Source: a virus
Reading direction: 5' to 3' (one strand)
Virus record (IMG/VR): IMGVR_UViG_3300042549_007395
Coordinates: 1-32,242 of that record
Length of the DNA stretch: 32,242 nucleotides
This document shows positions 22,076 through 28,027 of the stretch, in pieces. The notes under the pieces were generated by a model. The model worked only from the letters and a program-made list of their open reading frames with translations. It did no database searches and was not told where the DNA came from. Position numbers and translations under genes: made by a program. Every line of letters begins with the position of its first letter. Within the stretch, counting starts at the first letter, position 1.

Positions 22076-22324
22076 ATGAGAATCACATTAGGTCACCCAG
22101 CTAGCTCCTACGGCGTCCCTGTCATCCTCTCCGATGACGGCGCGCTTATGGATTACGCACCCGGCATTCGGGCGCTGCGCGAAAAACTCAGCCTATCCAC
22201 CCAGGCGCTTGCCGATCTCTGCGGGGTCAGCCGGCGCACGGTGGAGGGCTGGGAGCAGGGTCGCCTTCCGAGTGCTGGAGCGCTCAATGTGATGGGTGCG
22301 CTTTTAGATGGATACTCTGCCTGA
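22076..22324 (+). CDS. HTH (Xre-type) transcriptional regulator
   Basis: An 82 aa protein with a helix-turn-helix of the Cro/Xre kind in its C-terminal half: IRALREKLSLSTQALADLCGV at about 32-52, then SRRTVEGWEQGRLPS to residue 67. The N-terminus (about 1-30) may pair in a dimer. It lacks any peptidase domain. It follows the 98 aa gene behind the double operator and could be the protein that binds there. Leader is A/C-rich (AACCAGACAAAACA) without an SD. Confidence 0.8.
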   Translation: MRITLGHPASSYGVPVILSDDGALMDYAPGIRALREKLSLSTQALADLCGVSRRTVEGWEQGRLPSAGALNVMGALLDGYSA

Positions 22325-22962: not shown

Positions 22963-23388
22963 TTATTTTCCCAAACCGTTGCCGTATTCCCGGCGGGTTT
23001 CTTCTCCGGCGCTGGGGGGCAGGGCGTGCAGGGGGGCGAGGGTCTCGCTCTGGTGGTGATCGGCGGCGAGTCGGTCGAGGCCTTGCATGGCCCATTCCCG
23101 GATGATCATGCCAGCGTCCAGGGCCGCTTGGTTCCAGGTGTCCATCTGCTGGCTGGTGGGCTGCAGGACGATCTTTTCCAGATCGGGAGCATGGCCGGAG
23201 GTGCGCGCGGCCTCGGCGGCCTCGATGGCGCTGGACATGGCGGCATGGATCCGCGGGGAGAGTTTCTTGCTCCGGGGTGCCAGGGCTTCCCGGACGGATG
23301 CCTCGCTGTAGCCGCTGGCCTGGGCCAGCCAGACGCGGTCTTTGCCGAGCTGTATCAGCCTTTTGTCGATGTCATCCGAGGGGATCAT
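22963..23388 (-). CDS. Phage repressor candidate, HTH type
   Basis: The only minus-strand gene in the window, opposite the early operon, the usual place for a prophage repressor. The 141 aa protein has an N-terminal DNA-binding-like domain: DDIDKRLIQLGKDRVWLAQASG (about 5-26) then YSEASVREALA, the helix-turn-helix order of small phage repressors. A helical middle follows and a C-terminus without the LexA/CI peptidase signature (no Ser/Lys dyad context). Induction therefore would not use RecA-stimulated self-cleavage. Its promoter should lie in the operator array at 23430-23488. Confidence 0.72.
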   Translation of the reverse strand: MIPSDDIDKRLIQLGKDRVWLAQASGYSEASVREALAPRSKKLSPRIHAAMSSAIEAAEAARTSGHAPDLEKIVLQPTSQQMDTWNQAALDAGMIIREWAMQGLDRLAADHHQSETLAPLHALPPSAGEETRREYGNGLGK

Positions 23389-23429
23389 GGCGGGACGCTA
23401 GCAGGCAGGGCGGGGGAAGAAAAGAAAAA

Positions 23430-23488
23430 TTCGCTACTCAAGCGAAGTTTTCGCTTCACAAAGGCGAAATATTCGCTAATCCTTCGCT
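23430..23488. promoter_or_regulatory. Divergent operator array between repressor and early genes
   Basis: Six half sites of TTCGCT/AGCGAA type lie at 23430, 23441, 23450, 23463 (GGCGAA), 23472 and 23483. Two inverted pairs, AGCGAA-N3-TTCGCT (23441-23455) and GGCGAA-N3-TTCGCT (23463-23477), have centres 22 bases apart. Single TTCGCT half sites stand 15.5 bases outside each pair. This is the layout expected for cooperative repressor dimers controlling divergent promoters. Confidence 0.72.
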
Positions 23489-23489
23489 T

Positions 23490-23729
23490 ATGTCCGAGAG
23501 GGAAACAAAATGTGAAGAGGTGGCCGCGGCGCAGGAGCCGCGCGCGGCGGTGGTTTTTGACCCGAGTGCGCTGTCTGCGCGGAGTCTGACGCTGATTTTG
23601 ATCCGCGCCCAGGAGTGGGGGTGCAGCCCCTCGGTGGCGATGTCCCGCTTGCTCGATGAGCTGGCGATGAAGCGGCGGGCCAATCGCCTGCGGGAGCGCG
23701 GGGTGCATGAGGCGCCGGCGGAGGGCTGA
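23490..23729 (+). CDS. First early gene, small regulator candidate
   Basis: A 79 aa protein starting 2 bases after the operator array, divergent from the repressor, where lambda-like phages place cro. The middle and C-terminus are helical (SALSARSLTLILIRAQEW, SVAMSRLLDELAMKRRANRLRE), basic at the end. The two-helix arrangement could be DNA-binding, but I see no clear HTH. The upstream AGCGAA-rich array leaves no room for an SD, so the transcript may be nearly leaderless. Confidence 0.5.
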   Translation: MSERETKCEEVAAAQEPRAAVVFDPSALSARSLTLILIRAQEWGCSPSVAMSRLLDELAMKRRANRLRERGVHEAPAEG

Positions 23730-26650: not shown

Positions 26651-28027
26651 ATGAAAAAGACGATCAAGGAAGAGGAGCCGAAGGGGGAGAGCAACAAGCT
26701 GCTGATGCTGGTGTGCCCGAGCATGCTGCGGGAGCACCCGCAAAACCGGAGATTTGAGGAGTCCGGTGAGCGGTGGGAGCAGATGGTGGAGAGTGTGCGG
26801 CGCCACGGGGTGATCACGCCGCCGACCATCCGCATGGTCAAAGAGGGGGATGCGGGCGCTTACCAGATTTTGGCGGGGCACCGGCGGAAGGCAGCGGCGG
26901 TGGCTGCCGGCCTTGATCGTGTGTTGTGCGTGCTGCATGACATGGATGACCGGCAGGCGGCGGAGTTCGTGCTGCTGGAGAATCTGCAGCGGGAGGATCT
27001 GGATGCCTACGAGGAGGCGCGCGGGGTGCGCGGGCTCATGGATGACTGCGGCAAGACGGCCGAGGAGGTGGCCGAGGCGATCAGCCGGAGCGTGCGCTGG
27101 GTGAAGAGCCGCCAGCTGCTGCTGGATCTGCCTGAGGAGGTGGTGACGGCGGTGCGCAAGCCGCGCGGTGATGCGGGCCATCTGTCCATGGGTGCGGTGG
27201 AGGAGATCCTGCGCGTGCCCGAGGAGTGGCGTGCGGAGGCGGTGCAGCTGGTCCTCCACCCGGATCTGGAGGCCGGCGTGCTCAACGAGGAGCAGAGCCG
27301 CGAGGTGCTGCGCCGCTGCCTGCTGGAGCCGAAGCGCCGGGAGGCGGAGTGGGAGGCTAACCGGGAGGCGATGGTCAAGGCGTGGCGCGGGGTGCTGCAG
27401 GGGCATTTGCACGGGGAGGAGGATGGCCTGCTGGTCATCGCGGCGGCGTGGGGTGAGCGCGAGCGCATCGCCCGTGAGGGTGAGGGTGCGCTGGAGCGGG
27501 TGCGGCTGGCTGAGCAGTCCACGGAGGCGCCGGAGGGGCTGCTGTGGCTCCACCTCGCGGTGCGCCACGGGATGGCGGTGCGGCTGGTGCCGGATGATTC
27601 CGCGGAGATGAGCCGCCCGGTGGTGGATGCTGCGCTGCTGCGCCAGGCGGAGAGCGCCCGTGCGGATGGGGGTGAGCCGGCGTGGCTGGTGACCAAGCGC
27701 CGCAGCGTGCTGCGCGAGGAGGGCGTGGAGCGTGCCCTGGGCGTGCTGGATGGCAACGGGGAGGTGGACTTCGATGAGGAGGAGCGCCCGGTGGATGCTC
27801 TGACTCAGACGATGGAGCGGCATGCGTGGTGCAATCTGACGGGGGTGCATGCGTTTCTGGCGCAGGCCCGCTTGATCTTTGCCGCGGAGGGGGAAGACGG
27901 GGTTTTGAATGCGGATCCATCAGTGCCGGCGTGGGCGGAGGAGCAATTTGCATTCCTGGGAATCGAGGCGTGCGAGTGGGTGTTGTCCCTGGCGGCGAGT
28001 GCGCAGGCGGAAGGGGGGGCGAAGTGA
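26651..28027 (+). CDS. ParB/Spo0J-like DNA-binding protein
   Basis: A 458 aa protein with the ParB N-terminal core: a strand region with MLREHPQNRR near 25-34, ILAGHRRKAAA at 73-83 (the GERR box, which has GHRR here) and LLENLQREDLDAYEEA at 108-123. A helix-turn-helix at about 135-158 (KTAEEVAEAISRSVRWVKSRQ) follows. The family binds specific DNA sites and, as CTPases, can slide along DNA; some phage members have nuclease activity. Without an ATPase partner (ParA) nearby, partition is not implied. The second half is long, acidic and unassigned. The stop overlaps the next gene by four bases. Confidence 0.8.
   Translation: MKKTIKEEEPKGESNKLLMLVCPSMLREHPQNRRFEESGERWEQMVESVRRHGVITPPTIRMVKEGDAGAYQILAGHRRKAAAVAAGLDRVLCVLHDMDDRQAAEFVLLENLQREDLDAYEEARGVRGLMDDCGKTAEEVAEAISRSVRWVKSRQLLLDLPEEVVTAVRKPRGDAGHLSMGAVEEILRVPEEWRAEAVQLVLHPDLEAGVLNEEQSREVLRRCLLEPKRREAEWEANREAMVKAWRGVLQGHLHGEEDGLLVIAAAWGERERIAREGEGALERVRLAEQSTEAPEGLLWLHLAVRHGMAVRLVPDDSAEMSRPVVDAALLRQAESARADGGEPAWLVTKRRSVLREEGVERALGVLDGNGEVDFDEEERPVDALTQTMERHAWCNLTGVHAFLAQARLIFAAEGEDGVLNADPSVPAWAEEQFAFLGIEACEWVLSLAASAQAEGGAK

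Follow-up and report, generated by a model that had tools for sequence, protein, structure and literature searches.

The locus

The window analysed here is a complete virus record from IMG/VR, 32,242 bp in length. In it, a predicted repressor gene and early genes diverge from each other with putative operators between them (Table 1). The intergenic region measures 101 bp and separates the 141-aa gene, which starts at 23388 on the minus strand, from the 79-aa gene, whose ATG lies at 23490 on the plus strand. A second small protein of the XRE-type helix-turn-helix (HTH) class is encoded at 22076-22324, between the integrase and the repressor and on the strand opposite the latter.

Table 1 Features of the divergent regulatory region
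Feature	Position	Strand	Sequence	Remarks	Dyad match
141-aa protein, predicted repressor	22963..23388	-		N-terminal HTH (434/Cro type) and C-terminal helical module
O1	23421..23435		AAAGAA-AAA-TTCGCT	Left half degenerate, right half perfect; de novo dyad search	10/12
O2	23441..23455		AGCGAA-GTT-TTCGCT	Perfect 15-bp dyad; overlaps proposed -35	12/12
Proposed early-promoter -35	23454..23459	+	TTCACA	Placed by alignment with TTGACG in relatives L052/L065
O3	23463..23477		GGCGAA-ATA-TTCGCT	In proposed -35/-10 spacer of early promoter	11/12
Possible O4	23474..23488		CGCTAA-TCC-TTCGCT	4-bp overlap with O3; right half is TTCGCT at 23483-23488	10/12
79-aa first early protein	23490..23729	+		Small, helical

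Exact copies of TTCGCT or AGCGAA occur five times within 59 bp, at 23430 (+), 23441 (-), 23450 (+), 23472 (+) and 23483 (+). An earlier note on this DNA had listed six half-sites; the remaining one, GGCGAA at 23463 (-), carries one mismatch. On re-counting, the half-site positions, the 3-bp centres, the 22-bp spacing of the two central dyads (O2 and O3) and the distance of 15.5 bp from the outer half-sites (23430, 23483) to the nearest dyad centre all proved correct. The order of the half-sites was given there as TTCGCT/AGCGAA and has to be inverted: each dyad reads AGCGAA...TTCGCT. The array does reach the start of the early gene, as had been stated, since its final half-site ends at 23488. 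It was also said to fill the intergenic region, which is incorrect, as about 32 bp adjoining the repressor start are devoid of sites. Likewise, the array had been described as symmetric. Along it the half-sites are oriented forward, reverse, forward, reverse, forward, forward, and it is therefore not symmetric: the two outer copies (23430 and 23483) have the same plus-strand reading, TTCGCT, and two-fold symmetry needs AGCGAA at 23483.

Architecture of the putative operators

A de novo dyad search of the intergenic region resolved 15-bp sites of 6-3-6 architecture, with the centres of O1, O2 and O3 lying 20 and 22 bp apart. The three dyads share one consensus, from which the left half of O1 has degenerated. 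Because this search recovered 23421-23435 at 10/12, the half-site at 23430, previously regarded as single, is the right half of a third 15-bp operator, AAAGAAAAATTCGCT, whose left half is worn. The related phage L065 has a like site at the same position (AAAGAA-AAT-TTCTGT, 11/12). A possible fourth site ends just upstream of the early ATG; its orientation runs counter to the claimed symmetry, and no equivalent was seen in the relatives L065 and L072. In addition, the 17-bp pairing TTCGCT-N5-AGCGAA (23430-23446) may be an alternative binding unit.

The clustering of half-sites is genuine and goes far beyond what chance would produce. When the 101-bp intergenic region was shuffled 20,000 times with its dinucleotides preserved, a single shuffle held a 6-mer five times (exact copies, with at least three different letters in the 6-mer), and elsewhere in the record such a five-fold 6-mer occurs in no stretch of that length. 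The dyad search was unsupervised: it derived the lengths of half-site and centre from the sequence itself and picked AGCGAA with a 3-bp centre. The resulting three-dyad score of 50 was reached by none of 3,000 shuffles, of which the highest scored 34. These exact-copy and dyad statistics replaced one based on the most frequent 6-mer with one mismatch, which was weak (4/3,000 for the window).

Outside the window, the exact motif was matched 31 times in viral contigs, against about 29 matches expected by chance on a rough estimate. Several of these matches are copies of the same few unrelated segments, and no viral contig with an exact match encodes a relative of the repressor. Two unrelated phage contigs (L034:5091-5192 and L035:3469-3570) contain AGCGAA-N3-TTCGCT dyads with identical half-sites inside GGGG/CCC-rich repeats; no repressor relative was found in either.

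The predicted 141-aa repressor

The N-terminal domain of the 141-aa protein, modelled with AlphaFold2 and compared by Foldseek, resembles the 434 repressor, 434 Cro and C.Esp1396I with probabilities of 0.98-1.00 and E-values of only 0.1-0.4. As a single sequence the protein has no Pfam match. The profile of its family, searched against PDB/Pfam, retrieves the XRE domain 3bs3 (E=1.1e-5). Fold prediction and family profile place the protein among HTH repressors of the cI/434 kind.

In the AlphaFold2 model, the C-terminal part comprises a strand-like stretch followed by two predicted helices. For this module, profile searches yielded a weak match to TacA1 in 2 of 11 members (best E 0.031) and a CopG-type chain, 7ak7 (E=0.5), which weakly suggests a ribbon-helix-helix-like module. 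A domain search detected no S24 peptidase in the 141-aa protein. In the translations of relatives L074-L082, L084, L086 and L087, an S24-like C-terminus follows the same HTH and middle module. The presence of the S24-like domain in some relatives and its absence from the window repressor and others suggest that SOS-type induction was lost or gained within one family.

A proposed early promoter

Since a sigma-70 scan called no full promoter in the intergenic region, we infer the -35 element of the early promoter from related phages. The hexamer TTCACA, which overlaps the end of O2, aligns with TTGACG in L052/L065, and in relatives the positions of TTGAC concentrate 50-79 bp from the start of the repressor gene. 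O3 falls in the spacer downstream, and the -10 candidates (TAATCC, AATCCT) are poor. By this alignment the operators would overlap the -35/-10 region of the early promoter.

Relatives and conserved geometry

No relatives were recovered when the 141-aa, 79-aa and integrase proteins were searched directly, and a three-row repressor profile had no matches among genome contigs. Related phages were reached through searches with the helicase and the terminase, followed by a whole-genome profile search; a Verrucomicrobiales MAG with a related terminase served as the centre of the order-wide profile search. Repressor relatives in related phages include G001 (41% identity) and G005 (29%), with further matches in G016 and G017. 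In G001 (L052:2850-3130, L003), GAACATCGAACGTCGAACATCGAA repeats through several reading frames ('SNIEHRTSNVE'). By profile, the repressor family is present in 99 of 387 Verrucomicrobiales genomes, in addition to the related phages. In many relatives about 100 bp separate the repressor start from the early ATG, and a small protein similar to the 79-aa protein often follows.

The earlier note would have taken a motif not conserved between related phages as a refutation, a criterion that calls for care. The letters change; the geometry is what has been kept. Counted from the repressor start, 6-3-6 dyads occupy positions 33/53/75 in the window, 33/52/74 in L065, 21/51/73 in L072 and 11/54/74 in L089. 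In the closest relatives, O2 lies 51-54 bp from the repressor start and O3 20-22 bp beyond it. O2 and O3 fall in a stretch of close alignment between the window, L052/L065 and L072, where the half-sites read AGCGAA, ACAGAA and GTAGAA, respectively. Other letters are likewise found at the O2 position in L066, L067 and L089; in L089 (TTATCA) and L066 (TTACCG) O2 lies at 53-54 and O3 20-21 bp further. Among 21 lineages, a count that leaves out the window, the O2/O3 pair (position 50-55, spacing 19-23) ranked in the top two pairs in six, against 0.88 expected (P=1.6e-4); as the lineages share ancestry, this number measures conservation of the layout and not independent invention. No significant dyad set was seen in many of the more distant relatives (L085, L093-L096, L112, L119 and L122).

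By inspection, closely similar repressors have like half-sites (ATTTAC in L064/L068, TACACC/TGCACC in L086/L091). Across 16 lineages the correlation between recognition-helix and half-site similarity is weak (Mantel r=0.15, p=0.07), and the C-terminal module does as well. A layout that is kept while its letters change is the pattern expected for an immunity operator diverging between phages.

A putative lysis-lysogeny switch

The operator region of a divergent repressor within an immunity region, as originally proposed, is the best reading of the array: the neighbouring gene encodes a predicted HTH repressor, and closer relatives carry dyads at the same places in intergenic regions of equal length. 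Quite likely, the array serves a temperate Verrucomicrobiales phage as the early operator region of a lysis-lysogeny switch of the lambda type, bound by the 141-aa repressor. In the scheme that follows, we infer the identity of the binding protein, the order of filling, cooperativity, the promoter positions and bistability. Dimers of the 141-aa repressor would bind O1, O2 and O3 through 6-bp half-sites with 3-bp centres. Occupancy of O3 and O2 would cover the rightward promoter from -35 to -10 and silence the 79-aa gene together with the early genes downstream. O1 is the weakest of the three and lies nearest the repressor gene, whose expression it could tune, and the additional half-site at the ATG may add occupancy over the transcription or translation start. 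Cooperative occupancy and a two-state switch, which the earlier note had predicted, are plausible.

The main alternative is that the array is bound chiefly by the 79-aa protein, as a Cro-like or ribbon-helix-helix factor, with the 141-aa protein as partner or co-repressor. The 79-aa family occupies the first early position in many relatives, and the weak structural neighbours of its AlphaFold2 model (pLDDT 71) are ribbon-helix-helix antitoxins and CopG, with hits to CopG, FitA and MazE. Short direct and inverted repeats, typically arrays of short half-sites, are bound by ribbon-helix-helix proteins, omega and MetJ among them. However, these Foldseek matches all have E>3 and nothing reliable emerged, nor did domain and profile searches assign the protein to a family. 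Moreover, the dyads are kept in L075-L084 (tested in L075), where the first early gene is unrelated to the 79-aa gene, and dyads with 3-bp centres and half-sites about one turn apart suit an HTH dimer. We consider this alternative unlikely; the 79-aa protein itself is a candidate Cro-like protein or antirepressor.

A role in replication or partition, with the half-sites as iterons or as a parS-like site for a ParB-like protein, has very little probability. The half-sites are indeed repeated in a short stretch, and the early region of the phage includes a gene for a ParB-like protein carrying ParB_N and ParB HTH domains (26651-28027), but parB is 3 kb away, the array is situated over a promoter-like region with divergent regulatory genes on either side, and the arrays of relatives sit at the repressor gene. 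Equally improbable is an RNA hairpin or attenuator formed by TTCGCT-ACTCA-AGCGAA (17 bp): a weak terminator-like hairpin was found on both strands over the first two half-sites (23430-23446; 2 found against 0.1 expected), yet its stem has six pairs, three of them G-C, and it accounts for just two of the half-sites, leaving the O2 and O3 dyads and the conserved spacing unexplained.

Returning to the repressor-operator reading, a switch of the ordinary lambda on/off kind is the most likely form. Rather doubtful, in our estimate, is a more specific version in which a repressor family combining a 434-type HTH with an oligomerisation module that resembles ribbon-helix-helix proteins, whether or not S24 is present, determines the operator spacing (20-22 bp between 15-bp sites), phages lacking S24 induce through the small early protein as an antirepressor, and the start-codon half-site acts as a fourth control point.

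In the literature searched, no lysogeny switch has been described for phages of Verrucomicrobia. The locus and its relatives would form a family of switches whose spacing stays constant as the letters of the half-sites diverge. They offer a natural data set on the evolution of operator specificity and on heteroimmunity between Verrucomicrobiales prophages.

Comparison with known systems

The layout had been held to differ from that of lambda OR, which is not supported. In lambda OR, the -35 of PR lies at the edge of OR2 and OR1 between -35 and -10; the sites are 17 bp long and spaced by about 23-24 bp. With three operators of 15 bp, whose centres are separated by 20 and 22 bp, and a -35-like hexamer at the O2/O3 boundary, the region follows the lambda OR plan with shorter sites. 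Both systems place three dyad operators between a divergent repressor and the first early gene with centres about two DNA turns apart, and, on the promoter placement inferred here, a -35 at the edge of the middle operator with the next operator in the spacer. In contrast to lambda, the window has the smaller site length and spacing and an extra half-site at the early ATG, its repressor lacks the self-cleaving S24 domain, and its first early protein is not recognisably Cro.

In the Lactococcus phage TP901-1, CI combines an N-terminal HTH with a C-terminal oligomerisation domain and the divergent early gene encodes MOR (PMC4941734, PMC7250872). The window repressor is similarly built of an HTH and a C-terminal module, and the early gene of TP901-1 encodes a second regulator. 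Operator placement and the oligomerisation domain of TP901-1 differ from those of the window.

The predicted N-terminal fold and HTH are shared with the repressor and Cro of phage 434, although identity is only 23-30% over about 55-65 residues and the half-sites differ.

The cI-cro intergenic region of Staphylococcus phage phi11 also contains three 15-bp operators, not all of which are reported to be bound by CI, and its early gene is Cro (PMC3991615). The window thus resembles phi11 in having three 15-bp operators between divergent regulators, in a phage whose host belongs to an unrelated phylum.
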